Positions 11,095-64,000 of a stretch of DNA of 64,000 nt are shown one piece after another (within the stretch, counting starts at the first letter, position 1; each line of letters opens with the position of its first letter). The notes beneath the pieces were generated by a model. That model did no database searches. It saw only the letters and a list, made by a program, of their open reading frames with translations, and was not told the origin of the DNA. The DNA comes from Apostichopus japonicus (Eukaryota > Echinodermata > Holothuroidea > Aspidochirotida > Stichopodidae), in contig NC_092575.1 in assembly GCF_037975245.1 (NCBI RefSeq), positions 325,001-389,000 on the forward strand, written 5' to 3'. A program made the position numbers and the translations under genes.

Positions 11095-13002
11095 TTATGC
11101 TTTACTTTGCTCCTTACTACTCTTCCAAGATATGATACGGCTTGCCCCAGGCCGATCGCTGCAATACTCATTGTAAATCAGTTTGATCAAAAACATATGA
11201 AAGAGTATGATCATGCTAAAGATGGCAATCCAGAAAAAGACAGGAATGTGGAATGGTTCTCCCTTCCCAGACTCTGACTTTGGAGGTATCTCATCTAACC
11301 GCTTACTTTTGTTGATGTGGATGATTTTACGTAAACTTATGAGGTGTTCTTTGCTATGTGAAATGTATAAGAAGGGAGTTGATGGTTCAGTCCATCTTAA
11401 TTCAAAGGTCTGATGTTGAGGCTGCAGCTCCTTGGGGTCTGAAGCACAGCCTGCTTCACATGCATACAGCTTGAGTGGTTCCTTCTTTTGAGCGTGAGAA
11501 CTAACCACACGTACTTGTATAGTCTGCTTGTTCAACCTCGGATCAATTTCAATGTCTACAAAAGTTGTGTTAATTAAGAGATTGTGAAAATGATATTGCC
11601 CCTCAAAGTAAGAGGGATCTGCATGAAAAGATAGTTCCTTGTCAGCAAATTGACCTCCTAAGAAACTAAGCATGACAGCTTGATTAATACCTTGTGTTCC
11701 TGCACGGAGGAGTCCTGAACATCCATGCTTGTACAAGACATGCATCCAATGAGAGAGCAAATCATTCAGATCTGCCTCTTTTTGTAATCCTTTCCATAAA
11801 TCCACTTCATGAATCGTTGGTTGGCCGTTGAAGCAAGATGTTGGTCGTTGTAGTTCTTGCAGCATCTCCTTCTTCATCTGTTTTGTAGTAGATGGGAGCA
11901 CAAAGTATGCAGGTACTGATGACAGTAGGTAGTAGATAGTAATCATCCCAAGCTCTGTATTTAATACCATTTTATCTTCTTCATCATCATCATCTTCCTC
12001 TGAGTTGACGGCCACAGTAGGCTCCACCATCAGATGACTATTCCAAATATTCTCTGACCAAATGTTCAGATGGTCCATTTCAACTTCACTCATGTCCATC
12101 CCTAGAAAACTGAAAAGTTCTTCTTCCACGGTATCAACCAGCTCTGAGAGAATGTCAGTTTCTGAGTGGGCATCTAAGAATGGTTCAGAGTATTTAATAA
12201 TTGACTGAGTTTTAATTTGATGGATGGATTCTGGCGGTACTTCAGAAAGCTTGCTGATGGATGTTGCAGCCACCACTAATGCAATATGATGTTGATGTGC
12301 TTTGTCTTGTGGGTATGGTGCAGGGAATCGTCCCGATGATAACGAATACTGGTATTCCTTGCCATTAATTTTGAATGACTCAGTGCTTGTTCCAGAGCCC
12401 TTCCAATAGTAAGGTCCATTCCTGCTCATTTCAAGGATGATTGGCACTGGTGATTTATTTTCTAAAGTGACAATCTCATAAAACACAGATGGTCTTGTTC
12501 TGTGAATAAATGATGTTACATTTAGCCACACACATGTGTTCATCACAAAGTAACATTGTATTCGCTCCACTTTTCCCTTCCTATAATTTACCACGTACAA
12601 AGTCTTATCATTGTATTTTTGTACACTGACACGAAGCATTGGTCGGTATGGAGCCATTACCGTTTTTGTTATCTCATACTTGAGCCTGATGTTATGAGGA
12701 GATAAATGGTTAACCACAAACCCAAGTTTACCATTCCCAATAAATGGCAGGACCTTCTGGTCTGTCTCTTCCTTTCCTGGGTACAAAATGGTTGCTTCTG
12801 ATGGTATAATGGATTTTTGTATTTCCTCTACTTTAAGGGTCATGCAGTCTGTAGTCATTTTGGACGTTTTGCTTCTCTGTATTAGCCAAGGAGCTATATA
12901 GCCAAAGAATATTAGAACGGTCAGGAAGGCTATACTGATTCTCCGCCACTTGCCAGTTGGTATGGAGGCCACAGAGGCCCTAAGTCTGTTGTAAGCCCAC
13001 AT
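11095..13002 (-). CDS. KIAA2013: KIAA2013 homologue, membrane protein of unknown function
   Basis: A single uninterrupted frame of 635 aa, almost the length of the human protein (about 634 aa). Residues 20-40 are a hydrophobic signal or anchor segment after a basic N-terminus. A large presumed lumenal/extracellular region follows, with N-glycosylation sequons at N161 (NVT), N182 (NKS) and N478 (NTT) and an acidic run at 335-343 (EEDDDDEED). A second transmembrane helix at about 585-609 precedes a short tail. The segment FHMFLIKLIYNEYC around 601-614 is nearly identical to the human C-terminal helix, and KLYACEAGC (511-519) matches the human KIYACKAGC. The family has no established function that I can name. 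The first Met is chosen because it opens the hydrophobic segment in the expected place. There are no introns in the CDS; a 5' UTR intron is possible but not shown. Confidence 0.9.
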   Translation of the reverse strand: MWAYNRLRASVASIPTGKWRRISIAFLTVLIFFGYIAPWLIQRSKTSKMTTDCMTLKVEEIQKSIIPSEATILYPGKEETDQKVLPFIGNGKLGFVVNHLSPHNIRLKYEITKTVMAPYRPMLRVSVQKYNDKTLYVVNYRKGKVERIQCYFVMNTCVWLNVTSFIHRTRPSVFYEIVTLENKSPVPIILEMSRNGPYYWKGSGTSTESFKINGKEYQYSLSSGRFPAPYPQDKAHQHHIALVVAATSISKLSEVPPESIHQIKTQSIIKYSEPFLDAHSETDILSELVDTVEEELFSFLGMDMSEVEMDHLNIWSENIWNSHLMVEPTVAVNSEEDDDDEEDKMVLNTELGMITIYYLLSSVPAYFVLPSTTKQMKKEMLQELQRPTSCFNGQPTIHEVDLWKGLQKEADLNDLLSHWMHVLYKHGCSGLLRAGTQGINQAVMLSFLGGQFADKELSFHADPSYFEGQYHFHNLLINTTFVDIEIDPRLNKQTIQVRVVSSHAQKKEPLKLYACEAGCASDPKELQPQHQTFELRWTEPSTPFLYISHSKEHLISLRKIIHINKSKRLDEIPPKSESGKGEPFHIPVFFWIAIFSMIILFHMFLIKLIYNEYCSDRPGASRIISWKSSKEQSKA

Positions 13003-14640
13003 CAGTAGAGTAAGCTGATGAGTCTACCTAATGTAGTGAAGCAGAAATATAATAACGCTGTCAAAGTCAAATACAAGTTGCACATGTTTTAGCTAAGACA
13101 TGCTTCAAGGCCTTCCTGAAATGATGTCAGAAATCTTTGCTATCACCAGTACAAATTGCAAATGGAAAGCTCAGTGTTTCTTCGATACTCTTGAAGGCAT
13201 CAACAATCACACAAAGACTGTTGAAAATAATACAAACTACTTAAATGAACTTTTTGCTTTCAAGATTGAATTATTAACAATGGAAAACAATATTCACTAA
13301 GAAGATTTTCAAATCAACCACTGTAAAAAGATTGTCCAGTAATTTGCTTTTGCTCCATAAACAAGACAACACATTTTATTTCACATTTCAGTAGGTAGCA
13401 ACTCATTAAATGCATCTAACATTATGAGATCTAATGAGTGTGAAACCAAGATAGCTGCTCCCATCCTTGGTGACCCTTTCCTCAACATCGCGTCTTAATT
13501 ATTAAACAATGCAGGTAAAGTGCTTTAGTAGACATGTAAGACAGCTGAAAATCTTAGCCGTACCCAGTGTGGATAGGCTCACTATTATAAAGAAACTACA
13601 GTAGCTATCCGACTTAAAGCCACACAATAGTTTATCAACCATTCATACATACAATACAAAAGCTTGCACAGCAATGGGATCATGATGAAATTAAGCAAGG
13701 ATGTCTAAAATCTCATCTAAATATTGGTACTGTAAGGCTGGTATTAACCTACATGTAGTTTTACCTGATACTCCTGAATTAGTAGACTGTAATCAACAGT
13801 CTACAGTGCATTTATTACAGAATAATGCATGAACTGGGGTACAACGCAAGCTAATGAAGGAATAGCGTTATACTTACATGTAAGTGCAATAACCTGCAAT
13901 AATGCAACGTAGTCCATTGATCACCCGTTCATGGTTACACCATTCAATTTGCAAAATTGTAAACCCTACAGCTACTGTAGTGTAACTTAATTTAGTAGCT
14001 AGTATAACTCTATTCTAGAGGAAACTACTGTAGACTGTTTGTGAAAACATTTAATAAATCAAATTTTAAGTGAAAATATACCCTTTCAGGCTCTAAGTGC
14101 AGACTGCGATACAGGATTTACCACTTATCTGAAGCTATATAGTGCATAGTAAACTGCTTTGCAGTTGGTTAGGGGAAAGAAAGAAAGATCTTCGAAGTCG
14201 CAAAACTGGTACTTCGTTGCAGAACAATGGGGTGAGGTATTAATTGCTGACGTTATACACAGGAAAGAATGACGTGTTTAATACAAACGAATGTGGGATC
14301 ATATTAAGTTTAATAGTATTTCATTAAAAATCTATAAGTAGAACGTGAAATGTATGCTTACCTGGAATGTTCTCTGACTTAACGTGTGAACTCAAACCAG
14401 TAACAAGAACGTTTTCACTTCTTTAGTGTTCAGTCGGAAACAAAATATGTGAATGTAACCATTGTGGGGACCTTTGAAATGCTAGATTGTAAGCTAACAT
14501 GTCGTAACAGTGTGGTACTTGTGGAGAAGTATTCTCAAGTGCTAAACCAACGGTGTTTCACTATCAATATACATATTCTATGCTGCGAAACAAATGGGGT
14601 TTACCCCAGCCTAGTATCATTGTACCAGATGTCAATTCGA
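13003..14640. other. Upstream flank of KIAA2013 homologue, nothing recognised
   Basis: This should hold the promoter and 5' UTR. No TATA box or CpG-rich segment stands out, and no further exon was recognised. Confidence 0.4.
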
Positions 14641-16966: not shown

Positions 16967-19900
16967 TCACAAACTAGCTTTTGAAACCACACTCTTGCCA
17001 AATCTGCTAATTCTAAGGGCAGATATATCATAAGATGGTTCCTGACCAGTTGCCAACTCAGAGAGAATCTTTCCCACTACTGGAGCAAGTTTGAAGCCAT
17101 GTCCTGAAAAAAAGAAAAAACTTCTATTAAATGCTACTAATTTGATTGCCACTGTACAGTGTAAGAGAACCCACACTCTGGATATAACAAGCAATTTATT
17201 TTAAAGTTTCTGTGCTTCACCCCATTTAAATTGGTTGTTAAGGTGATGCACGCTGATGTTATTTTTCCATTACATACACATATTTTGTCACAGACTGAAA
17301 TCTAATTTTATCAACAACAAAAATTTAATAAGAAAATAATTAAATGACACATTATTACCTATCCTACTCACTAGTAATCCTAAGTACCAGCGATGGCTTC
17401 ACTTGATTGTTTTGGATGATGGCATAGTCATGCGGGTATGTAAATGAAGTCACTTACAAACAATGGACTTCTAGTGCTGTGTGCAAAATGGTAATAATGC
17501 AACTTATGCAAGTCAGTGCTAGAATAGTGACCATTAAGCAGCCAAAAGCTTTCAATGATTAGTAGTCTCTTGTTATTCTGGAAACATAACTATGAACCAT
17601 ACCCAAAGTAGCATAGTCATGGAACGTAAATATCAATTGGAATGTTTCTAAACTGGTTTAGTAAGGACATCATCTACAAGAGGGAGAGCAAGTTAGAAAG
17701 GCTAATTATCATTGGTTTAGCTACAGTAGGTCTGATGGTTTGGATATGAATCTTAACTATTAAATATGTTATATAATAAGCATACACACCAGAAAAGCCG
17801 CATCCAATGACAATGTTCGGATGTGAAGGATGGTGGTCAAGGACCAGTTCCCAATCTGGGGTCACCTATGAATAAACATTACACTCATGAATATCCAGTG
17901 GTACTTTACTAAAGATCAACTATTCTTATTCTGATAAACACATCAATTAGACAGGCACTGTTTACATTTAAATGTTACTGTTTATTACATTCACTGTCTT
18001 CTACTTAGATATATTAAAAGAAAACAACAGCTGCAACATTGGCAATGTTGCAGCTCAATTGACTTTTGCAGAGAAACTTGCAACACCTATCGTGGGTCAC
18101 ACACCATGATTGAAAATCATTCCATATTATCTGTTTTTACAAGGAACAGAGAGAACACAATTTAAAATACTGTTCCTCTTTACAACATTGTCCATTAATA
18201 AATTCAATAAGCCTTTAGGAACTCCCAAAGTATTCTGTTTGAAAGAGGAACATTTTCAAAATTGTTTGGATTAGCTTTGACCTCAAATGATCTTTGGCCT
18301 CATTTCATACTTTATTCCACACATGACATGATCAAAATTGCCCAATTTTCAGCAAGAAAAATAAAGGTGAACTGTTATGACTAGACAAATGCATCCAATG
18401 CTTCGGAATAAACTCCAGATGTATATCAATTGAGTGACAGATCTAGAGAAACATTCCATTTAGCACTTGTTCAAAGCAGGCAAATGCAGTTGAAGCCCAT
18501 TTTTATGAGCATATTTTGACAATAAATATCCATATGGACACATTAAATAAACTCCTCTTGAATGACAACAAGTTAAAAGAGAGATAGTCCTAGTTTAGCT
18601 CAATGATGATAGAAGAAGGAGTTACCATACACTAAGGGATTACATGGGAGGGTTCTTACCTGCCCAAGCAACTAAACCAGACAACCAGGTCTGTTAAAGA
18701 TTGAGCACAGTGAAGTTCTGTCCGAGAGAAATAGCTGAGTAGTATAATCAACTTCATGTTGTCAATGGCTCAAGATGACATAAGACCAACCTTCTTGCAC
18801 TATAAAATGTCCCATATCTTCACAAAACCGTTCGTTTAAACCAGTGTGAACAAGTTTGAATTCTTCCTTTTGCCCATAACAACAGCATATGACATTTAAC
18901 CTCTTCATTACTGTGCACTATCTTGCAAACCAAGCCAACTGATATATAGAACCAACTTCAGTCAAAATTAGATTAATGCCTAACAAAGATGGTCAGTTTG
19001 AAAAATATTTCAGGTTTTGGCCAATTATGACCAAGAAGGATATTTGAACCCTTTATCCTTATACAACATTTGTACCTCTCACCTACCAACTACTGCCATC
19101 AACTTCCATCTTGATCAAAGGAAATCCCAAGGAGAAGGAGAAACATTTACAAGGATTCCATGGTTTGACCTACCTTGACCCCAAACACCTTAAACCTATG
19201 TATGTGTGAACATTTAAGAAGTCCCTGACAAAGCTTAGCAACAACTTGCATGAGTATCATAAGGATTGAGATTGCTCATTGTAAGAACACATGATATAAG
19301 TAACATTGTTCACTATAAACACTCACAGTATACATGCAGGATTCTGTTATGACTGGCTTATTGCCATCAATTCCTGGAAGGTAGTTGTTGATAAACCTTT
19401 GAATTAATTTAACTTCTCTATCATCAGTTGTAGCATGTTCATCTCTCCTATCTGGATCACAATCAATTCCACTGTGGTAGGCAATCTGATGGATATGTGA
19501 TGACAGAAATCTGTTATAGTTAGGATACAGCAGACTGGACAAATGGCAATATGTGGTAACACCTTATCATCAAAGTTAGGCTTAGTTATAAAAATATATA
19601 CTATACAAAGTGAATTTCCATTTACAAAAGAAAACATATATATCCTTCACAAACAAGACCATTTCTAATTTGTTACTTCTGTTAAACATATTCATACTAT
19701 GCCAATGATGACTACAGTATGCTAATACCACATACCTTGACAAGACCAGGATATTCATGCATATATAGGCAATAGTTACACATTTCTTATTTGTTACTTC
19801 TGTTCAACATATTCAGGAGCTATACTATGCTAATGATGACTACAGTATGCTAATACCACATACCTTGACAAGACCAGGATATTGATGCATATGCAACAGT

Positions 19901-22900
19901 TACACATTTCTTATTTGTTACCTTTGTTACACATATTCAGGAGCTATACTATAATGATGGCTGTATAATAATACCGCATACCTTGACGAGACCAGGATAT
20001 TCATGCATAGGCAATAGATACACATGCTTCTCTCCAGTTGAGTCATCAATTACACAAGGCATCTTGTCAAAATCACCAAACTTCTCCCTCCAGTAGCAAA
20101 CATTTATCCTCCATACCTGCTCAAAAATATCACAAGGCAAAGAACATAGAAGCAAAACTTTATGCGATTAGTTTAATACTTAGATACTTCTTGTAATGTT
20201 TCTTCTTATTAACACTTATACACACACACTCACCAATGTGATTAACACTGAAACCAAACAGCAAAATAAAGTTAATGTAATTGTAATATCACTAGATCCT
20301 AGCAGATAATACAGACTTGAAAAGTATACTCCATGATTCCATGTCACATGACTCCAGGATGATGAATGACTGTTACAATTACTCTATCATTTATATTATT
20401 CCCATTAATAACATACTTTACATGTGGTAATTGCAGCACATACTGTATATTGTACCACTCACCTAGCTATGTCTCATGCCCAAACCAAATTCCCCAAACA
20501 TGTGAACATGGATGTGAAAGAGTGATATATAATGACCATTCTTAAAGGTGACCATTCAATATTCTACGAATCATCCAGTAGACATATGTGTGTATATGTG
20601 AATATTGATCATTCTTATAGGTGACCATTCAATATTCTACCAATCATCCACTAGACATATGTGTGTATGTGAATATTGATCATTCTTATAGGTGACCATT
20701 CAATATTCTACCAATCATCCACTAGATATACATGTGTGTTTATGTGAATATTAGTCATTCTTATAGGTGACCATTCAATATTCTACCAATCATCCATAAG
20801 GTATATGTGTGTTTCTGTGAATATTAGCCATTCTTATAGGTGACCATTCAATATTCTACCAATCATCCATAAGACATCTATGTGTATGTATGTGAATAGT
20901 TTGTTCAGATTTGATCCATTCTCCTAGGAGAGTATTACTGCTCCCATTCAGACTGGTCAGTTAGGACAATCTCTCTCTAATGCTCACCTGTAATGGTATA
21001 TTCAGTCCGAGTGGTTTAAGGAGTTTAGAGGCCCAGGCTCCAGGTGTTATGACAACACTGTTTGCTCTGTGCACAGCTTTGTTTGTGTAAACAACCACAT
21101 ATCTTCCAGGGATAATATTTAGCACCTTCTCTTCATCTTTTAGAATCCCACCTTGCTTCTCAAACTGAACCTGATTGTAAAATGAACAGGACGTAAGAAG
21201 TCCACATCGAAACGGACTTGTCGGTGATAAGGTCTCTTATCATCCTGATATAACCTCTGCATCATACACTATGGCAGCAAATTGCACTGCCATTGGTTGC
21301 CACTGTCTTGTGAATATGTCATGAAGAGTATTATAATGTTGATGAATCAGGGCATGCCTTCTGGGCTGGCACCTTTGAAGACCATCACCATAAGTTCATA
21401 TTTTAACTGGCAAAAAGTGCCAAATACAGTTACATGGACATGACACACCCATTGAACAATGTTCCCTTTACAATAATGTTATTTACTTTCTCTTTAGGAC
21501 AGGTTTTATCTCATTGAGTTCAGCCACATTTAACAAACTTGAACCTCACCCAGATTTTTGTACTACACTGTTGCACAGTTTGTCACTACCTTCACTTTTA
21601 TATGAATTCATTCTTATGTGGAACCACATGCAACATAGAAAAATTGTAATTAACACCAAAGTAAGCATTTTTTGAAACGGTTATGATCTTTAATTTAAGT
21701 ACATACCTGAAACCCACGAAGTGCCTTGTCAGCCCTCAATGTCCCTGCTGAGTGATCTAAAACAGCTCTGAAATCTTTAGATAATTTCATTCCTGGGTAG
21801 TTTTGTCTAAGTTCTTCATGAGTCAGCTCTTTAAATGGTTTACCACATTTTAGTAACTCCCTCTTCCGGTTATCAAGAAGATCATAGGGTGGTTTCTGGA
21901 TAACAAGTAACTTAGTATTCCTGCAGAAAAACAAAATATTTAATATCCTGAAATACTTTATAATTAATTCCTGGTAGTTTTGGGGGGTTAAGGTTGGAGT
22001 AGCTATCTAAACAATTTCACATAAGGTCATAGAAACTAAAACTTTTTGACTTGCATAGACCTATTACACTGTATTCATAAGAAAATACAGTTTTACAACA
22101 ACTTAAGGAAAAGTGTCGATCTGACATTTGACCTTTTAACTGGTGAGCTGAACAAAAGTGAAGTCACTATACAGGTGAAGGATTTGTGTTTAATTAAAAT
22201 GTTCTAATGGTCCTTATGGAGCATAGCATTAGTTCATGAAAGGCAATTCACATCCTCAACTACAGATAGCACAATCTTTTACTGTTCAACTAGAAACTTG
22301 ACAGCATAGAGGACTAAACCTACTTGAACAAGGTGGTCTCTGTTTCCTTTTCTAATTGTGACCAAAGAGGAAATGCCTCCTCCATCATTTTCATGTAATG
22401 CTCTTGGCTGTAGGAGAACCTAGTGATGCGAGATTGACCATGAGAACTGCCTCTGGAATGTGGTAGACCAAACTAAAACAGAGCACAAAAAAACACAAAT
22501 AAGGAACCTGCAAAAGATTATTTAAATAATAATTATGGGTGTCTTAAGCACAATTCATATTGAAGCTCATTCTGTTCGTTTACTTACTATACTGTTAGAC
22601 TATTATTTCACTGAGTATTGATATCAAAATTAATCAAGGAAAAACTTTGTGACTACTTTGATCATTCAAATGACAGGCTAACAGCTCTATTAGACTCCAA
22701 ATGATACAATACTAGAAGCAAACTGCTCAGTCGGTAAATATTTCTCATGTGCATTCCAAGGTTCAACATCACTGAATTTAATCTTTGTTTCCATCTACTG
22801 TATTTTATACTCAATACATCATTTTGCAGATAACAGGTTTTAATTTTCTGCAGCATCATGCACCCAGATGATATGAAAATTTTCCAGTAGCCATTATGTC

Positions 22901-42870: not shown

Positions 42871-43797
42871 GCAACATACTGCCAATATAGAGTAACAATT
42901 ACCTACTGTACATCATGATATGCAGAAAGATACACATCAGCTTTAATTACATGTTATGATTTGAAGAAACTAGAAAGAGACTGAAACCAGTGTCATAGTT
43001 AAGCATATATGCTTAAGGGCCAGTGTCATGTTTCTACTACCTTAAGTCTGTGTGGACTTTAGTGTGACGGAACACTATTAAATCTGTTATATCATCGAAA
43101 GGAAATCAAATTTGTCACAGATTTTACTCAGTTTATCTCTTCATATAAACCAATCATTATGGTTTTGTTTTATCCTTTAAACTGTTTAAACTTTTAATAT
43201 TTGTTGTTTTCATTCCAATCCTTAAAGTCTTCCCTTGGTAGATGTAGCCCCTTGAACAGAACATCCACAGAACAAGTATAATTTTTCCATTTTATAATAA
43301 TATTACAATGCACAATGTGTCCGCTGCTTAATGTTGCATCCATCCATGCACGGTATACTTATTGAATATTTGGTAACTTAAAGCATGGTTTGGTTACAGG
43401 AGAAACTGCCTGATATAGTAAATATGTTTGATATTAAAAGTTTATGTTAACAAGATCCATGTGAACATGCAGTAAATGATCAGGAGGGAATACGCAAGAG
43501 TTAGATCTCTGTTGATAATACATGCAACAGGAGGTTGTGGAGAGCCATAAGCTTGAGAGGTAAATGCAACTTATAATGTTTGTCATGTTCAAATATGCAG
43601 TGTATTGAAAACAATAAATTGTTGGTCTTTCAAGTGGATGTGATTATTCTTACTTGTTTTTACTTATTCCATATTTTATTGAATATAACACAAACCTGCC
43701 TCCAACTATCTCAGTACATGAAAATCGTGGTCATGAACAAAATAAACAGTTTCAGGATTCTCAGCAAGACTGATAATTTGATCTAGGTTGGAATTAC
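42871..43797. other. Intergenic DNA, nothing recognised
   Basis: AT-rich; no exon with family similarity. Confidence 0.5.
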
Positions 43798-44522
43798 CCA
43801 ATCAGACTCCTATAGGATAGACCTTAGATACTACACACTGCCACTGAACCAAGGACTTAGCCAATCAGACTCCTATAGGATAGACCTTAGATACTACACA
43901 CTGTCACTGAACCAAGGAATTACCCAATCAGACTCCTATAGGATAGACCTTAGATACCACACACTGCCACTGAACCAAGGAATTACCCAATCAGACTCCT
44001 ATAGGATAGACCTTAGATACTACACACTGTCACTGAACCAAGGAATTACCCAATCAGACTCCTATAGGATAGACCTTAGATACTACACACTGCCACTGAA
44101 CCAAGGAATTACCCAATCAGACTCCTATAGGATAGACCTTAGATACTACACACTGCCACTGAACCAAGGAATTACCCAATCAGACTCCTATAGGATAGAC
44201 CTTAGATACTACACACTGTCACTGAACCAAGGAATTACCCAATCAGACTCCTATAGGATAGACCTTAGTTACTACAAGCTGCCACTGAACCAAGGACTTA
44301 GCCAATCAGACTCCTATAGGATAGACCTTAGATACTACACACTGCCACTGAACCAAGGACTTACCCAATCAGACTCCTATAGGATAGACCTTAGATACTA
44401 CACACTGCCACTGAACCAAGGAATTACCCAATCAGACTCCTATAGTATAGACCTTAGATACTACAAGCTGTCACTGAACCAAGGACTAAGCCAATCAGAC
44501 TCCTATAGGATAGACCTTAGCT
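43798..44522. repeat. 63-bp minisatellite (~11.5 copies)
   Basis: Unit ccaatcagactcctatagga then tagaccttagatactacacactgccactgaaccaaggaattac; the first spacings are exactly 63 bp. Units are almost identical, so expansion is recent. Each unit contains a CCAAT box-like sequence, probably by chance. Confidence 0.93.
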
Positions 44523-45388
44523 ATTCATAATGTGGACACTTAACTGTATACATTGTGTACTTTTCAATTATTCTTACTTAATTGATCCGTTGCTTAGTAA
44601 ACTATCACTCATGACATATTAGCCCCGTACTGTATAATAGGCATACTAGTACAACAATTCCTTTCATAAAGATCATATATATCAGTATATTTCAGATGTA
44701 AAGCCAACAGATACCAGTGGATAGTACTGAGGATTGTTCTATTAAGAATAAAGGGATGAGGCTGTTATTGAGCAGGTGCTACTAAAGTATTCAGAAACTG
44801 AATAGAGACAAAAATACTTGATTGAAGAATAGAACACTTGTATTTGGATTCCAAAGAACTCTTACTTGGACAGTGATACTCAGTACTCAAAATATTGAGT
44901 ACTTGTAAATACTTGATACACTGATAGTACTGTACTACAACACATCGTGACTGCAGAGAAAATGTTGAAACAAGACAAGTAAGATTTGGCAATAAAATAA
45001 AAATATTTTCTTCATTTTATGTACATATGATAGTTCCCATTTTCCTCATCCATGGTCTACTGAAGTCAAATACTTAACCACATTTTTGGTAAAAGAGTCA
45101 TCAATCTGGACTCTGCATTCATTACCTTTCCATCTCACTACTAATGAAACTAATATTGCTTAATAAGTTTTGTGTGAACTAAAGCTTGTGCATTAATTCA
45201 ATTTAGGAAAAATACTTCTAGCACAATGATGCATTATGTAATAAATAGTATTCAAACTCTTAACAATTGAACAAAAAGTTGCATATTAGAACAATAGCAC
45301 GCATACTTTACTAACTTTACTATTCCATTTACTTTAATAACTTAAATACTTCAGGTAAGTCAATGTAAAAACTCAAATCTTATTTAGA
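44523..45388. other. Intergenic DNA between the Rab-like and TPC genes
   Basis: The 3' ends of the two genes face each other here. Short 'agtactca' imperfect repeats occur near 44870-44930; nothing else is recognised. Confidence 0.45.
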
Positions 45389-51600: not shown

Positions 51601-54600
51601 TAATATATTTAATATTATGTAATATCTCTAAGAATATTACATGTTTAACAAAAGAACATGTTGAGATGTAGACATAGCTACATGAAATGATGGCGTTGTC
51701 CATTATGTCGTATTCCATTTGTATTTTATACAAACACCCTGCTTTTACAAACTTGCAAGAAATGTAAGCCATTATACCTTCAACATAGTAATTAAACACA
51801 AATACGCTTATAATTTGACAAATGTTTTAATTGTAAAACTCTTTGAGTGGAAGAAAGTGGTATTATTGTCTTGAGATGAAAAAATGTTTTAGTCAGCAAA
51901 AACTTCAAAAGAAATGAATAAGCTAACAAGTCATGCCAATCTACTACTAACAAACTATCTTGCAGACGTAATACAGAAAATCTACTTACTGACAGCAATT
52001 TTCGAGTTTGGCCTCAGAGAAAAGTTCCATTCCCACAATGGCATAGAAGTAGTACATGACTACAATAACAAGACCCATGCTGAAATAAATAGCATTAGAA
52101 TAGCAGATTAGTATGGGCCATGCAGACCCATAAATAATAGCATTACAATAGCAGATCAGTATGGGCCATGCAGACCCTTGCTGAAATAAATAGAACAAGA
52201 ATAGCAGATTAGTATGGGCCATGCAGACCCATAAATAATAGCATTACAATATCAGATTAGTATGGGCCATGCAGACCCATGCTGAAATAAATAGAACAAG
52301 AATAGCAGATTAGTATGGGCCATGCAGACCCATAAATAATAGCATTAGAATAGCAGATTAGTATGGGCCATGCAGACCCATAAATAATAGCATTACAATA
52401 TCAGATCAGTATGGGCCATGCAGACCCATGCTGAAATAAATAGCATTAGAATAGCAGATTAGTATGGGCCATGCAGACCCATAAATAATAGCATTAGAAT
52501 AGCAGATTAGTATGGGCCATGCAGACCCATAAATAATAGCATTAGAATAGCAGATTAGTATGGGCCATGCAGACCCATAAATAATAGCATTACAATAGCA
52601 GATCAGTATGGGCCATGCAGACCCATAAATAATAGCATTAGAGTAACAGATATGTATGGGCCATGCAGACCCATGCTGAAATAAATAGCATTACAATAGC
52701 AGATCAGTATGGGCCATGCAGACCCATAAATAATAGCATTAGAATATCAGATTAGTATGGGCCATGCAGACCCATAAATAATAGCATTACAATAGCAGAT
52801 CAGTATGGGCCATGCAGATCCATAAATAATAGCATTAGAGTAACAGATATGTATGGGCCATGCAGACCCATGCTGAAATAAATAGCATTAGAATAGCAGA
52901 TTAGTATGGGCCATGCAGACCCATAAATAATAGCATTAGAATAGCAGATTAGTATGGGCCATGCAGACCCATAAATAAATAGCATCGGACTAGAAAAATC
53001 ATGATACACCAATGGTAATTGGTAATCAATGGTAATCTTTACAGTGAGAGAATTCTTTTGCATGCTTCTATTTTTCAGCAAGTTTGACCCCCAATTACTA
53101 AGAAGGAAGTCAAGGGTAACAGTGGGCCCTAATTTGTAGTCACATTATTCATTCACAACCACCAAACATGGTTTACTCCTTCACATTAGACAAGAAAGTT
53201 ATGCATTTGATAGACTTTTATTACCGTAATTCAATTGATATTATTAGAATTACCTGAACATTCTGGGCATTAGTACTCTGACTGTGGCAGCAACATCCCT
53301 GTACCTCTTACGGACCTTAAACAGCCTGCAAATTAAAAAACATAAGTAAAACGGTTGAACACGAGTCAGTGACTTGACATGGTTACTGATGAAGCATTAT
53401 CTTAACTAAATTTCCTTCCCTGGTTGTATTTTGTGTTGATATTAAGCAAAACATTATTCACAGGTATCTTCATTCCTCCTACTGGGATCATTGACTTCCC
53501 TGGTTGTACTTTGTGTTGGTACTCAGCAAAACGTTATTCACAGGTATCTTAATTCCACCTACTGGGATCATTGACTTCCCTGGTTGTACTTTGTGTTGGT
53601 ACTAAGCAGAACATTATTCACAGGTATCTTCATTCCTCCTACTGGGATCATTGACTTCCCTGGTTGTACTTTGTGTTGGTACTCAGCAAAACGTTATTCA
53701 CAGGTATCTTCATTCCTCCTACTGGGATCATTGACTTCCCTGGTTGTACTTTGTGTTGGTACTAAGCAGAACATTATTCACAGGTATCTTAATTCCTCCT
53801 ACTGGGATCATTGACTTCCCTGGTTGTACTTTGTGTTGATATTGAGCAAAACATTATTCACAGGTATCTTCATTCCTCCTACTGGGATCATTGACTTCCC
53901 TGGTTGTACTTTGTGTTGGTACTCAGCAAAACGTTATTCACAGGTATCTTAATTCCACCTACTGGGATCATTGACTTCCCTGGTTGTACTTTGTGTTGAT
54001 ATTGAGCAAAACATTATTCACAGGTATCTTCATTCCTCCTACTGGGATCATTGACTTCCCTGGTTGTACTTTGTGTTGGTACTCAGCAAAACGTTATTCA
54101 CAGGTATCTTAATTCCACCTACTGGGATCATTGACTTCCCTGGTTGTACTTTGTGTTGGTACTAAGCAAAACATTATTCACAGGTATCTTAATTCCTCCT
54201 ACTGGGATCATTGACTTCCCTGGTTGTACTTTGTGTTGGTACTAAGCAAAACATTATTCACAGGTATCTTCATTCCACCTACTGGGATCATTGACTTCCC
54301 TGGTTGTACTTTGTGTTGGTACTGAGCAAAACATTATTCACAGGTATCTTCATTCCTCCTACTGGGATCATTGACTTCCCTGGTTGTACTTTGTGTTGAT
54401 ATTAAGCAAAACATTATTCACAGGTATCTTAATTCCTCCTACTGGGATCATTGACTTCCCTGGTTGTACTTTGTGTTGGTACTCAGCAAAACGTTATTCA
54501 CAGGTATCTTAATTCCACCTACTGGGATCATTGACTTCCCTGGTTGTACTTTGTGTTGGTACTAAGCAAAACATTATTCACAGGTATCTTCATTCCACCT

Positions 54601-57600
54601 ACTGGGATCATTGACTTCCCTGGTTGTACTTTGTGTTGGTACTAAGCAAAACATTATTCACAGGTATCTTAATTCCTCCTACTGGGATCATTGACTTCCC
54701 TGGTTGTACTTTGTGTTGGTACTAAGCAAAACATTATTCACAGGTATCTTCATTCCACCTACTGGGATCATTGACTTCCCTGGTTGTACTTTGTGTTGGT
54801 ACTGAGCAAAACATTGTTCACAGGTATCTTAATTCCATCTACTGGGATCATTGACTTCCCTGGTTGTACTTTGTGTTGGTACTGAGCAAAACATTATTCA
54901 CAGGTATCTTAATTCCTCCTACTGGGATCATTGACTTCCCTGGTTGTACTTTGTGTTGGTACTGAGCAAAACATTATTCACAGGTATCTTAATTCCTCTT
55001 ACTGGGATCATTGACTTCCCTGGTTGTACTCTGTGTTGGTACTGAGCAAAACATTATTCACAGGTATCTTAATTCCTCCTACTGGGATCATTGACTTCCC
55101 TGGTTGTACTCTGTGTTGATATTAAGCAAAACGTTATTCACAGGTATCTTCATTCCACCTACTGGGATCATTGACTTCCCTGGTTGTACTTTGTGTTGGT
55201 ACTAAGCAAAACATTATTCACAGGTATCTTCATTCCATCTACTGGGATCATTGACTTCCCTGGTTGTACTTTGTGTTGGTACTAAGCAAAACATTATTCA
55301 CAGGTATCTTAATTCCATCTACTGAGATCATTGACTTCCCTGGTTGTACTTTGTGTTGGTACTTAGCAAAACATTATTCACAGGTATCTTAATTCCTCCT
55401 ACTGGGATCATTGACTTCCCTGGTTGTACTTTGTGTTGGTACTGAGCAAAACATTATTCACAGGTATCTTAATTCCTCTTACTGGGATCATTGACTTCCC
55501 TGGTTGTACTTTGTGTTGGTACTGAGCAAAACATTATTCACAGGTATCTTAATTCCTCTTACTGGGATCATTGACTTCCCTGGTTGTACTTTGTGTTGGT
55601 ACTGAGCAAAACGTTTGTCACAGATATCTTCATTCCTCCTACTGGGATCATTGACTTCCCTGGTTGTACTTTGTGTTGGTACTAAGCAAAACATTATTCA
55701 CAGGTATCTTAATTCCATCTTCTGGGATCATTGACTTCCCTGGTTGTACTTTGTGTTGGTACTGAGCAGAACGTTATTCACAGGTATCTTCATTCCACCT
55801 ACTGGGATCATTGACTTCCCTGGTTGTACTTTGTGTTGGTACTGTGCAGAACGTTATTCACAGGTATCTTCATTCCATTTACTGGGATCATTGACACATT
55901 CATACCGTACATTGAATGTTTCTTTACAAATACAACATTGAAGAAAAATTGAAAACTCTCAGCATAGGTTTGTTGCTTTTCACATTCTAGAGGTTAATAA
56001 CTTACCTTAGTAAACGTAAGGGTCTTAAAATAACCACAAAGTAAAAGTTGGTGTCTACAACTTGGAAGATGATGCCTGAGATGGCGACTACTGTCACAAT
56101 GAAATCAAATCTAGGAAATAAAACAGAGGATTATGGCAGAAGAAAGGCTCTAAGTGAGATAAAGAGAAAATGTAAGGGGGGAAAAAAGGAGAAAAACTAA
56201 GGCACAATAGAGGATACAAGGATATTAATTAAAGCCTAAACTTCATGTGCAGCCCTCACATGGCAGTGCAATTTTCTATAAAGAAACATCCTGATTGTAT
56301 TTGTGTAAATCAGTACATCAGGGCTATAGGTTTGAAGGTATTAATCTGAAGATGTTTAAAAATACAACAATGAGAGGCAACCCAAAATACCAAGAGTAAC
56401 TCTGTGAAGCAGACCATAACATTTACTGTAACATTGTTTGATCTGTACCTATCTAGCAAACAGGATACCATAGATCTAGTCATATATAACACGAAGACTA
56501 CAAATGACAAAAGATTTCAGTTATTTCACAAAAGATATTCATATAAAGGGGTTTAATCTACAGAGGAAGACTTTATATAAATGTGATAAACAACCTCTCT
56601 AAATCTCAACAACATTCTCACACTTAGACATTTCGGGGAAAACTTTGAAGTTTACAATGTACATAAACATGTTCCACTAGATTATGTAAATATGTAATTT
56701 ACATTTTTCATTTTTGCCAGACAAATGTTGTCCATATTTGGAATAAACCAACCTTATTTACCATAGTAATTGTGAATATCTAAATAAAACTGTAGTATTG
56801 TTCAATTAAATTCTCCATAAAACCGAAGTACTTGGAAAAAGGTACAGCATGTTACTTACACATTCCATGTGTTTCCAAAATATCTTTGACATCCCAATCC
56901 AAGGATCTTCAACAGACACTCTATCCCATAAACTGCACAAAGTAAAACCATGACGAACGCTTGAATTATACTCATACTGAATTAAATTAAGTTAAACATT
57001 TTCAGGAGAAAACAAACTGTTACTCTACTTCACACATCCAATCCTATTTGAAACACTTTGTAATTTACTCCCCAATAGAATCTTTCGTTGACAAATTTCT
57101 GATAACTTTGTAACGACACCAAATCAATTGCTCTTCTCAATTTTGATAGTAATAAAAATAGTTAAAAGTCACAAATACAGGTAAAAAGTTTGACTTCATA
57201 TTAAATTAAAAATTATCTCAGTCACAGAAGCAAAGTATTGAAACATTCCATAAAAACTTGAGTATTGCTGCACAGGAAAACAGAATCAGAATTAAAAGAC
57301 TTACATGTGACAAATGCAATGTCGTACCAATGAACAACCTCTAACGTTTCCATCACTTCTTGAGCACTGCCTGTACCTGCAGATGAAACAGGAATTATTT
57401 CAAGTTACTGACAAAACAGTCAGATAGCTTCATAAAGATTATCTTGTATTTGCGATAATAATTACCACATGCAGCTATGAACAATATTTATACCAATCAT
57501 CGAACAAAAATTAATACCAACATCTGAGGGCTAGGAAATCACTTGGATATGTTTGGAAAAGCTAACATGTAATGTTGCAAACACGAAGCACAAGACAATA

Positions 57601-60600: not shown

Positions 60601-62580
60601 AATTAATTAAGAAGAACAATTTAATTTCTTAGTTACTTAAGGATGCTTTTTTAGTAACAGTGCAACTTTGATCTTGCCATTAAATATGTTTGAGCAGAAA
60701 CAAAACATAGTCATGGTAGGTAAATCTCAAGATCTAAGAGATAGTAAAGAGACACATAGGTATATCTCTATATATAAGAGATTGTAAAGAGACACATAGG
60801 TATATCTCTATATATAAGAGATTGTAAAGAGACACATAGGTATATCTCTAGATTGTAAAGAGACACATAGGTATATCTCAATATATAAGAGATTGTAAAG
60901 AGACACATAGGTATATCTCAATATAAGTGACACACATTAAGTGACACTCATAGGTACATCTTAATAAAGAGATAGTTAAGTGACACACATAGGTACATCT
61001 TAATGATGAGATAGTTAAGAGGGGATCTTACCATTCTGCTGCAAAGTCTTCTGAAAGCCATGGAAGCTCCAAGTCTCTTATGTAAGTACAATCTTTTAAA
61101 CTTCTCCTTCTCAACATCAGTGAAAGTGTTGTAGACTACTGCCAGTAACTGTGATGTAATACAATATGAGAAAAGATGAATTCAGGCAAGTATATCTTAG
61201 AGAACTTGAATCGCAATACAGAATAATAATTTGTATAAAATACAGACAACTGTACATCTATTGATACTAGATAATAGGCCAAGGCCTTTCAACTACCCAG
61301 ACCTTTAGGAAAGCAACATTAAAAATGGTGGTAAAATATGCTGTGAAACACAATATAGTGTGCAACACTTCACACAGTTTGTAAGGGAAACTCCATATGG
61401 TGACATTGTTATATACTATGTAACCTGATATTACTGACAACCTGATACTATCATACAAATATACAGCAATTTGTGAGTCCTAGGCAATGCTTAATGTTAT
61501 AACAGTCTACAGAACTCATTATGTATATGTTTCACTGTGTAAGCTGCATACAGAACCTTGCATGGTATGGCCTTACACTGAACACAGGATTGCATTTGGA
61601 GTGACTATCATACAACAATGTCTTATTTAAGTAGGAAATTATCTGAGCATTCTGACATTCATTTTAGCCATTGGTGGGATACAGAAAGCTAACACGTTAT
61701 ATGTACTGAATGGGAACACTACAACAGCAACAAAGCAACAACTACAACATCAGCAACACAACAACAACATCAGCAACACTACAACAACACAACTATAGCA
61801 ACACAACAACTACAACACAACATCGGCAACACTACCACAGCAACAACACAACATCGGCAACACAACAACAACATCAGCAACACTACAACAGCAACATAGC
61901 AACAACACAACATCAGCAAAACAACAACGTCAGCAACACAACAGCAACTATAGCAACACAACAACAACAACACAACATCAGCAACACTACCACAGCAACA
62001 CAGCAACAACACAACTTCAGCAACACAACAATACAACATCAGCAACACTGCCACAGCAACAACACAACATCAGCAACACAACACAACATCAGCAACACTA
62101 CAACAGCAACACCACAACATCAGCAACACAACAACAACACAACATCAGCAACACTACCACAGCAACAACACAACATCAGCAACACAACAACAGCAACATC
62201 AGTAACACTGCCACAGCAGCACAGCAACAACACAACATCAGCAACACAACTATAGCAACACAACAACACAACATCAGCAACACTACCACAGCAACAACAC
62301 AACATCAGCAACATTGCCACAGCAACAACACAACATCAGCAACACAAAAACAGCCACACAACATCAGCAACACTACAACAGCAACACAGCAACAACACAA
62401 CATCAGCAGCAATACCACAACATCAGCGACACAACGAAAGCAACTCAACAACATCAACTGAGAGCAAGGTAGAGACTTACAACATTTGTTAGAAAATAGA
62501 GCTCCAATATGAGAAAGACAATGAAAAATAAAGCCGACCATCTTGAGCTATTGTAGGCAGGCATCATGACATCGGGATAA
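45604..62580 (-). CDS. TPCN1: Two-pore channel, TPC1-like (3' part; 5' end outside window)
   Basis: Sixteen exons from the 5' side: 62580-62481, 61148-61032, 60331-60049, 59396-59340, 57376-57305, 56932-56860, 56110-56006, 53325-53254, 52079-51990, 51436-51345, 50748-50702, 49265-49197, 49006-48916, 47746-47625, 46808-46731, 46119-45604. All are phase-consistent, giving 660 codons before the stop. TPCs are endolysosomal cation channels built of two six-helix domains. Seen in order: filter I YPDVMMPAY, IS6 (ELYFLTNVLLAVVYNTF), a linker with an EF-hand-like loop, domain II S1-S4 ending RPLRLLRLFKVRKRYRD, IIS5, pore II (TLFELTVGNNW), IIS6 (VAYVLEAFLFRMQ), then a C-terminal region with PRTKADLS and MYAREVEEW as in TPC1. 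The tail is an acidic extension of ~170 aa. TPC3 is the main alternative. The N-terminal ~280 aa are missing. Confidence 0.93.
46187..46343. repeat. 78-bp direct duplication in the last TPC intron
   Basis: Two adjacent copies starting ctgtataactgtaaggatgt and running to 'gacctatattaata', nearly identical. Confidence 0.88.
47875..48080. repeat. ~72-bp tandem repeat (about 3 copies) in a TPC intron
   Basis: The unit has gttatttgtgttaacaaacc then 'aattttgaatgtagctaacactgtcaactat', diverged between copies. Confidence 0.75.
48170..48605. repeat. 61-bp minisatellite (~7 copies) in a TPC intron
   Basis: Unit aatgaattattgttgcttta plus aagtagcttaggttatgttcttctttgatattgtcaatgat; near-identical copies. 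Confidence 0.92.
49375..50576. repeat. 63-65-bp minisatellite (~19 copies) in a TPC intron
   Basis: Unit gacctgtatatatgtatatg, then atagatatacaatgtctgttgtggcaccaaagtacatgacatact. Long open frames on the minus strand across it are repeat artefacts. Blocks of three units recur, indicating higher-order exchange. Confidence 0.93.
50702..50748 (-). other. TPCN1: TPC exon: filter II
   Basis: A 47-nt micro-exon encoding most of TLFELTVGNNWHVIM. The NNW of filter II is present; the residue before it is Gly where I recall Val in vertebrate TPC1. Confidence 0.85.
52080..52978 (-). repeat. ~48-56-bp minisatellite touching the TPC IIS5 exon acceptor (~18 copies)
   Basis: On the minus strand the longer units read 'tttatttcag' then CATGGGTCT, which is the acceptor and first 9 nt of the exon 52079-51990. 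Five of the ~18 units keep this full acceptor (near 52188, 52279, 52430, 52673 and 52870); the rest have lost the 'ttcagc' step. The array begins exactly at the exon edge. Confidence 0.9.
53254..53325 (-). other. TPCN1: TPC exon: end of S4 and S4-S5 linker of domain II
   Basis: With the preceding exon (56110-56006) it completes RPLRLLRLFKVRKRYRDV. Arginines occur every third residue (RPLRLLR), the arrangement of a working voltage sensor. The intron between the two exons holds the 80-bp array. Confidence 0.85.
53410..55893. repeat. 80-bp minisatellite, 31 units with no length change
   Basis: The marker caggtatctt occurs at 53461 and then every 80 bp to 55861 (one copy reads cagatatctt). Units differ only by substitutions at a handful of recurrent sites (c/aattcc, cct/cca/cat, ggtact/gatatt, aca/acg). 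It sits in the intron interrupting the IIS4 coding sequence. Confidence 0.96.
57610..58690. repeat. ~65/59-bp minisatellite (~17 copies) in a TPC intron
   Basis: Unit acaaggcacagtaacacagc, atactgaacacagaaatata, ttatactgagaaaaggtaatagcat; a shorter type replaces 'aaatatattat' with 'cagcat'. Confidence 0.92.
59229..59258. repeat. 11-bp hairpin in a TPC intron
   Basis: cttcacagaaa and tttctgtgaag are exact complements around an 8-nt loop, about 80 bp from the exon ending at 59340. No family was recognised. Confidence 0.7.
60049..60331 (-). other. TPCN1: TPC exon: inter-domain linker with EF-hand-like loop
   Basis: The 94-codon exon contains LNSSGTGFINLSEFFNIYEV, a helix-loop-helix resembling an EF hand (N-x-S-x-T-x-F-I-x-x-S-E). 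Position 1 is Asn and position 3 Ser, and position 12 is Glu, so Ca2+ binding is doubtful, as in other animal TPC1 proteins. It continues into the pre-S1 region of domain II. Confidence 0.75.
60715..61015. repeat. ~39-bp tandem repeat (7-8 copies) in a TPC intron
   Basis: Unit aagagacacataggtatatc then tctatatataagagattgt, degrading into 'aagtgacacacataggtacatcttaat' units towards the exon at 61032. Confidence 0.85.
61715..62465. repeat. CAACA-rich simple/tandem repeat next to the filter-I exon donor
   Basis: Irregular repeats of caacatcagcaacacaac-type words over 750 bp; the plus strand is almost free of G outside 'cag'. On the transcribed TPC pre-mRNA it is U/G-rich with many UGCUG and UGUUG words, beginning about 16 nt after the donor of the exon 62580-62481. 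The plus-strand open frame of 181 codons (Thr/Asn/Gln-rich) is not taken as a gene. Confidence 0.9.
62481..62580 (-). other. TPCN1: TPC exon: filter I and S6 of domain I
   Basis: It reads YPDVMMPAYNSSRWSALFF and onward to LYFLTNV. In TPCs the filter residues immediately precede PDVMMPAY and lie at the end of the previous exon, outside this window. The exon starts with the third base of a codon after acceptor ccctacag. Its first 22 nt are copied in the adjacent array. Confidence 0.9.
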
Positions 62581-64000
62581 CTGTAGGGGGCAAATAGTGA
62601 TATCAAATGGTGAGTTAATAGGCATCATGACATCGGGATAACTGTAGGGGGCAAATAGTGATATCAAATGGTGAGTTAATAGGCATCATGACATCGGGAT
62701 AACTGTAGGGGGCAAATAGTAATATCAAATGGTGAGTTAATAGGCATCATGACATCGGGATAACTGTAGGGGGCAAATAGTCATATCAAATGGTGAGTTA
62801 ATAGGCATCATGACATCGGGATAACTGTAGGGGGCAAATAGTAATATCAAATGGTTAGTTAATATATAGGCATCATGACATCGGGATAACTGTAGGGGGC
62901 AAATAGTAATATCAAATGGTGAGTTAATAGGCATCATGACATCGGGATAACTGTAGGGGGCAAATAGTAATATCAAATGGTGAGTTAATAGGCATCATGA
63001 CATCGGGATAACTGTAGGGGGCAAATAGTGATATCAAATGGTTAGTTAATAGGCATCATGACATCAGGATAACTGTAGGGGGCAAATAGTAATATCAAAT
63101 GGTTAGTTAATATATAGGCATCATGACATCGGGATAACTGTAGGGGGCAAATAGTAATATCAAATGGTGAGTTAATAGGCATCATGACATCGGGATAACT
63201 GTAGGGGGCAAATAGTAATATCAAATGGTGAGTTAATAGGCATCATGACATCGGGATAACTGTAGGGGGCAAATAGTAATATCAAATGGTGAGTTAATAG
63301 GCATCATGACATCGGGATAACTGTAGGGGGCAAATAGTAATATCAAATGGTGAGTTAATAGGCATCATGACATCGGGATAACTGTAGGGGGCAAATAGTC
63401 ATATCAAATGGTGAGTTAATAGGCATCATGACATCGGGATAACTGTAGGGGGCAAATAGTCATATCAAATGGTGAGTTAATAGGCATCATGACATCGGGA
63501 TAACTGTAGGGGGCAAATAGTAATATCAAATGGTGAGTTAATAGGCATCATGACATCGGGATAACTGTAGGGGGCAAATAGTAATATCAAATGGTGAGTT
63601 AATAGGCATCATGACATCGGGATAACTGTAGGGGGCAAATAGTAATATCAAATGGTGAGTTAATAGGCATCATGACATCGGGATAACTGTAGGGGGCAAA
63701 TAGTAATATCAAATGGTGAGTTAATAGGCATCATGACATCGGGATAACTGTAGGGGGCAAATAGTCATATCAAATGGTGAGTTAATAGGCATCATGACAT
63801 CGGGATAACTGTAGGGGGCAAATAGTAATATCAAATGGTTAGTTAATATATAGGCATCATGACATCGGGATAACTGTAGGGGGCAAATAGTAATATCAAA
63901 TGGTGAGTTAATAGGCATCATGACATCGGGATAACTGTAGGGGGCAAATAGTAATATCAAATGGTGAGTTAATAGGCATCATGACATCGGGATAACTGTA
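62560..64000 (-). repeat. 61-bp array made from the filter-I exon edge (24 copies, runs off the window)
   Basis: Unit on the plus strand: ggcatcatgacatcgggata, actgtagggggcaaatagta, atatcaaatggtgagttaat, a. A few units are 65 bp (extra 'tata'). On the minus strand each unit reads 'ccccctacag' then TTATCCCGATGTCATGATGC; the first unit is the real exon start. Twenty-three further copies lie upstream in the intron, some differing only at one base (g/a/c in 'tagtgatat'). Confidence 0.96.

Follow-up and report, generated by a model that had tools for sequence, protein, structure and literature searches.

The window that we analyzed, a 64,000-nucleotide stretch of the sea cucumber Apostichopus japonicus genome (G000:C15:325001-389000, in an assembly of 671.6 Mb and 35 contigs), carries on its minus strand a gene similar to that of the two-pore channel TPC1. 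In front of the exon that encodes the domain I filter of this channel lies a long tandem array, each unit of which repeats the end of the intron and the beginning of the exon. Tandem repeats placed across intron-exon boundaries in this way have been named mirages in amphioxus, according to the portions of the two reports available to us (PMC3087553, PMC3902484). The array leaves the window at its upper edge; the next 7 kb was also read, and positions there are given in extended coordinates. Its description rests on the sequence of a single assembly. Copies are numbered from the outermost (copy 1) to the proximal one (copy 58), which is joined to the exon. The principal features of the locus are as follows.

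62559 to 64000, continuing to about 66117 in extended coordinates, minus strand: 61-bp mirage array, with 24 exon starts in the window and 58 copies overall.
62620 to 64000, minus strand: upstream copies 57 to 35 (decoy acceptors), each with 39 or 43 nt of intron and 22 nt of exon, the outermost of them cut by the window edge.
62581 to 62619, minus strand: proximal (58th), authentic acceptor region, with TTAAC (second A at -35), a pyrimidine tract and CCCCCTACAG.
62481 to 62580, minus strand: authentic TPC1-like exon for filter I and S6, 100 nt, encoding YPDVMMPAYNSSRWSALFFIVFLILELYFLTNV, with the donor GTT/GTAAGT.
61020 to 61140 (approximate ends), minus strand: next TPC exon (LLAVVYNTFTDVEKEKFKRLYLHKR...), identified by translation, genome search and joined-exon alignment.
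56005 to 56125 (approximate ends), minus strand: TPC domain II S3-S4 exon (RFDFIVTVVAISGIIFQVVDTNFYFVVILRPLRLLR), recognized by eye.

The host gene was identified from its exons. Four of them, once joined (128 aa), matched the entry "Two pore calcium channel protein 1" (chain 6c96_A, the mouse protein), to which query residues 1-127 of 128 align over chain residues 226-352 with an E value of 5.5e-42 and without a gap, including at the junction created by splicing at the last copy of the array. A 36-aa portion of the filter exon matches TPC1 chains with an E value of about 1e-7, the protein matches the Ion_trans model with 67 bits, and S5, the pore helix, the filter and S6 of domain I follow each other in the TPC1 order. 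The preceding exon ends in ...LFVLQTTA followed by AA/GTGAGT; joining AA/T TAT gives ...TTANYPDVMMP, so that the phases of the two exons fit. A search of the genome with three joined exons returned those three exons at this locus, the next best match having an E value of 0.003; with this query, strong similarity to a TPC was found nowhere else in the genome. Domain II exons were recognized by eye in the translations, and further candidate exons could be read in the same manner, as far as about 71.4 kb on the upstream side and about 45.6 kb on the downstream side. Judged by its sequence, the host gene is TPC1-like and the exon behind the array is its domain I filter/S6 exon, as the first-pass annotation, which was made from the letters alone, had proposed. 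Eleven TPC exons with approximate ends were tested for copies that cross their edges, and such a copy was found only at the filter exon; two others have short matches in the flanking intron.

Tandem Repeats Finder (TRF) delimits the array within the window at 62559-64000, with a period of 61, 23.4 copies and 97% matches, in agreement with the coordinates and unit length given earlier. On the minus strand, the 61-bp unit consists of 39 nt of intron end (a branch-point-like TTAAC, a pyrimidine tract and CAG) and the first 22 nt of the exon; its commonest form is ATTAACTCACCATTTGATATNACTATTTGCCCCCTACAG followed by TTATCCCGATGTCATGATGCCT, and among the variants the intron part measures 39 or 43 nt and the exon part 22 nt. 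The unit thus unites an acceptor with 22 nt of exon, as first proposed. The 32-mer made of CCCCCTACAG and the 22 exonic nucleotides occurs 23 times on the minus strand of the window (22 exact occurrences and one mismatched), whereas none of 100 dinucleotide shuffles contained it even once. A 24th exon start lies at 63995, with its acceptor cut by the window edge. The earlier expectation that the array continues was borne out: we counted 58 exon starts, 24 within the window and 34 past its edge, spanning 62,580 to 66,081 in extended coordinates, and the array ends at about 66,117 (G000:C15, about 391,117). The 23 acceptors originally reported to precede the true exon are therefore correct for the window if the truncated one is included, whereas the full number is 57. 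Neighboring exon starts are 61 bp apart in 51 of 57 cases and 65 bp apart in the remaining 6.

The splice-site core of 24 nt, ACTATTTGCCCCCTACAG/TTATCC, is identical in all 58 copies. The mutational events seen in the array amount to a handful, too few to judge selection on its acceptor. In 57 of the 58 copies there is a TTAAC whose second A lies at -35, the outermost carrying TTAAACTC at this place, and CTAAC is additionally present in 11 copies; by these motifs, the region is a putative branch point. The outermost copy is diverged (GTTAAACTCATC), and copies 2-58 fall into eight variant types. There is no N anywhere in the array stretch. Folding of about four units revealed no RNA structure beyond that of shuffled sequences (z -0.06). 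A donor-like motif on the opposite strand had been ascribed to every unit. It is present in 46 copies as AAATGGTGAGT, but 11 copies have AAATGGTTAGT instead and the outermost has neither; reverse-complementing the branch-point region yields this motif. The gene check on the plus strand at the array covered frames of 110 aa or more.

This arrangement leaves an intron of 3,755 nt when measured to the last acceptor and of 254 nt when measured to the first, with the array making up about 94% of it. An open frame is kept from the 58th acceptor only. As had been predicted for distal acceptors, all 57 upstream copies lead into a stop, which is reached after 29 codons (39 copies), 10 codons (11 copies), 52 codons (3 copies), 71 codons (3 copies) or 31 codons (1 copy), and with their use the exon would grow from 100 nt to 161-3,601 nt. 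Small cassette exons within the array are unlikely, because the consensus unit has on the transcribed strand a single GT in a poor donor context (GAT/GTCATG). Recursive splicing of the AG/GT kind is excluded, since the site reads CAG/TTATCC in 58 of 58 copies. With an identical 24-nt core in every copy, the strength of the local signal cannot pick the site. The TPC1 alignment runs ungapped through the last one, so that the gene seems to depend on it.

The amphioxus mirages are the closest parallel. In the parts of the reports that we could consult, they are described for Adh3, the globins BflGb6 and BflGb9, troponin C (TnC) and PGBD5 (PMC3087553, PMC3902484). Adh3 has units of 10-72 bp, BflGb6 is of the acceptor type with units of 150-160 bp (six and three of them in two haplotypes), and BflGb9 is of the donor type (PMC3087553, in part); in PGBD5 the number of units varies with the assembly, 2 or 7 for the 60-bp unit and 3 or 6 for the 108-bp unit (PMC3902484, in part). 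The available text of PMC3087553 further suggests regular splicing from Adh3 data and globin reverse transcription-PCR, describes length instability, as well as somatic instability at Adh3, and proposes a model of intron gain. Like these, the TPC array is a boundary-spanning tandem repeat with a unit in the reported range (tens to about 160 bp), its extra copies stay in the intron and many of them keep their splice signals, the genuine exon is intact, and the inner units are homogenized while the boundary copy is diverged. By every sequence feature compared, it is of the mirage kind, and of the acceptor type represented by BflGb6 rather than the donor type of BflGb9. It differs in its host, an echinoderm rather than a cephalochordate, and in having 58 copies compared to the 6 and 3 of BflGb6 and the 2 to 7 of PGBD5, as far as the accessible portions of those reports tell. 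A human minisatellite, which we take to be that of IFI6/6-16, is reportedly one with multiple splice donors, to go by the title of the report; there, too, a repeat would be laid over a splice site with many sites of one kind in a row, but donors are repeated rather than acceptors. Our literature search, which covered open-licence papers, turned up no echinoderm mirage. Minisatellites in earthworm metallothionein genes are intronic and, in the portion of the report at hand, are not shown across splice sites (PMC12783039). As far as searched, what is new is the echinoderm host, together with a copy number that is high beside those of the amphioxus cases compared.

A second mirage occurs in the same window, in a gene similar to monomeric sarcosine oxidase (E value of 1.2e-19; DAO family, 46.9 bits), presumably PIPOX by name.

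19660 to 20009, minus strand: 128-bp TRF unit, 2.9 copies, spanning an exon end and its donor.

The donor CAAG/GTATG at 19981 has copies at 19863 and 19735, which makes three overall. Beyond the window, we sampled the 30 best-scoring loci of at least 69 Ion_trans matches and of at least 126 kinesin matches; they form 49 separate intervals totaling 183,225 bp, in which 78 of 195 matched segments are whole (32 Ion_trans and 46 kinesin). Same-strand duplications overlap 4 of the 78 segments, and three of these are clear two-copy cases. In an Ion_trans exon (G000:C8:21187277-21187962), the acceptor and 37 exonic nucleotides recur 536 bp upstream with 86% identity; a Pfam search with a 44-aa piece of this channel-like exon gave no match, and its filing under Ion_trans rests on a match of 44.3 bits. 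In one kinesin gene (G000:C16:12356868-12357185 and 12359105-12359325), two different boundaries are each present in two copies: one is an acceptor, the other an exon end whose copy has lost the donor GT. The fourth overlap, a 21-bp array beside a donor of a kinesin gene on C15, is too degenerate to call. Mirages are thus recurrent within one genome. Further boundary duplications hit donors and acceptors alike, as if by a process indifferent to function. When the 78 segments were placed at random, 7.9 overlaps resulted on average compared to the 4 observed, with 113 of 2,000 trials at or below 4, and duplications cover 0.8% of matched exonic bases vs 6.5% of the rest, a rarity that would follow if duplications entering exons were mostly eliminated. 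Duplications show no preference for exon edges and, if anything, have been cleared from exons. The class III ADH gene, which we assume from its name to be the founding mirage gene of amphioxus, contains arrays in the 12.9 kb read, none of which overlaps the exon matches.

The order of variants within the TPC array bears on how it grew. Its autocorrelation is best at a lag of 16 units, a value reached in only 2 of 2,000 shuffles, and 601 bp of sequence reappear with two mismatches at a distance of 984 bp, which corresponds to 16 units. On the face of the sequence, this is how a young array that has undergone block duplication looks, and the best reading is that the array has recently been amplified. 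The founding step would have been duplication of a 61-nt stretch reaching from the intron end into the exon; slippage or unequal exchange may then have brought the copies to 58, partly in blocks of 16 units, the block pattern being visible in the order of the variants.

We think it probable that the array is a boundary-blind mirage minisatellite that is tolerated because exon definition selects the copy joined to the intact exon. By sequence, every copy carries the full local 3' splice signal, and only the last one leads on into the remainder of the exon and, 100 nt downstream, to a 5' splice site. Exon definition across this 100-nt exon, with enhancers located beyond nucleotide 22, would make the spliceosome choose the last copy; transcripts from other copies would be cleared by nonsense-mediated decay, and the array would be tolerated at some cost in output, not selected for. 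The term "decoy" used in the first-pass annotation implies a purpose, and the sequence appears to fit a boundary-blind minisatellite of a known kind better. Several points weigh on the other side. A full 3' splice signal, that of the outermost copy, lies only 254 nt from the donor; transcription reaches it about 3.5 kb ahead of the correct one, which would favor its early use. The copy number in the assembly could be wrong. Finally, the avoidance of exons by duplications is a weak test, given the 113 trials that gave as few overlaps as observed.

The strongest competitor, raised in the first-pass annotation but in our view unlikely, is a splicing sink, in which the 57 upstream acceptors compete for the donor and a share of transcripts that depends on array length is spliced to them, stopped and destroyed, so that the length of the array sets the dose of the channel. 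The local core common to all copies, the position of the outermost acceptor only 254 nt from the donor, where it is transcribed first, and the fact that any misuse ends in a stop all speak for it. On the other hand, the single poor GT of the unit means that a decoy could in practice do no more than extend the exon, to 161-3,601 nt, an outcome that exon definition should disfavor. Normal splicing is also what has been reported for amphioxus mirages, to the extent that the accessible text covers it (PMC3087553, PMC3902484). A graded form of the idea seems somewhat less likely again: a 3.5-kb run of 57 equal acceptors would act as a splicing attenuator that sends part of the TPC1 transcripts into decay, in a proportion set by array length. 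Because arrays of this kind readily grow or shrink, channel dose would vary between individuals or tissues. If this were true, mirages at many genes would give echinoderms and amphioxus a layer of dose variation that is both widespread and quick to change.

That the array was expanded during assembly, with fewer than 58 real units, is improbable. Assemblies commonly go wrong in long arrays of near-identical units, the near-perfect recurrence of 601 bp could have arisen in this way, and a draft assembly is said to be wrong for one amphioxus mirage (PMC3087553, in the legend of Additional file 4, the part seen). However, eight variant types in non-random order, a diverged outermost copy and a stretch free of N speak against such an expansion. 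The view that the upstream copies are coding, as an extra exon, or that the locus is a pseudogene is largely refuted and very hard to sustain, as nothing beyond the odd structure favors it, and against it stand stops in 57 of 57 upstream readings, four tested exons that are open and align to TPC1 over 127 residues, and the lack of a second genomic TPC match with an E value better than 0.003.

The locus offers a natural test of how the spliceosome chooses among 58 acceptors with the same local core: because local strength is constant, position and exon context must decide. The array extends mirages to an echinoderm, and their recurrence at donors and acceptors in one genome bears on how introns grow, slide and arise. 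Such arrays will also mislead gene prediction and short-read mapping.

Tandem arrays are common in the surroundings. TRF arrays cover 31% of the window, 51% of its TPC part (45.6-67.6 kb) and 8% of the sampled loci, the last figure counting overlapping loci twice. About half of the TPC gene (45600-67560, extended coordinates) consists of them, including 80 bp x 31, 128 bp x 9.5, 65 bp x 16 and others. One such array adjoins the filter exon on its other side.

61715 to 62458, minus strand: second, degenerate array, TGTTG-rich on the transcribed strand, with its start about 22 nt past the filter-exon donor.

As an idea only, the U/G-rich intron start that it provides might strengthen the filter-exon donor. 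At first sight, the 80-bp array at 53415-55895 resembled a plus-strand mirage of the acceptor type. Its position is between two TPC exons, and we ascribe the resemblance to chance. Elsewhere in the window, a 63-bp array of 11.6 copies on the plus strand (43787-44530) is open for 247 codons because its unit is a multiple of three, and an open frame of 642 codons on the minus strand (11095-13023) belongs to the DUF2152 family (PF10222, 117 bits for a 189-aa part). Amphioxus was considered as the host because of the mirage literature and was rejected: the GFP family, which amphioxus has, gave no match in this genome, a result that does not by itself show absence. Contig C35 (16,099 bp) starts with mitochondrial COX1, which stays open for 517 aa whether tables 4, 5, 9, 13 or 24 are applied. 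Reading AAA as N (tables 9 and 14, used by echinoderms and flatworms) is preferred, because the stretches STNHKDIG and GNW then agree with the invariant positions of other animals, whereas with AAA as K they do not. COX1 is followed by ND4L, a gene order seen in echinoderms. On a small contig of 31 kb, the region G000:C29:14745-31219 gave five separate COX1 matches, which are perhaps a mitochondrial concatemer or a nuclear copy.

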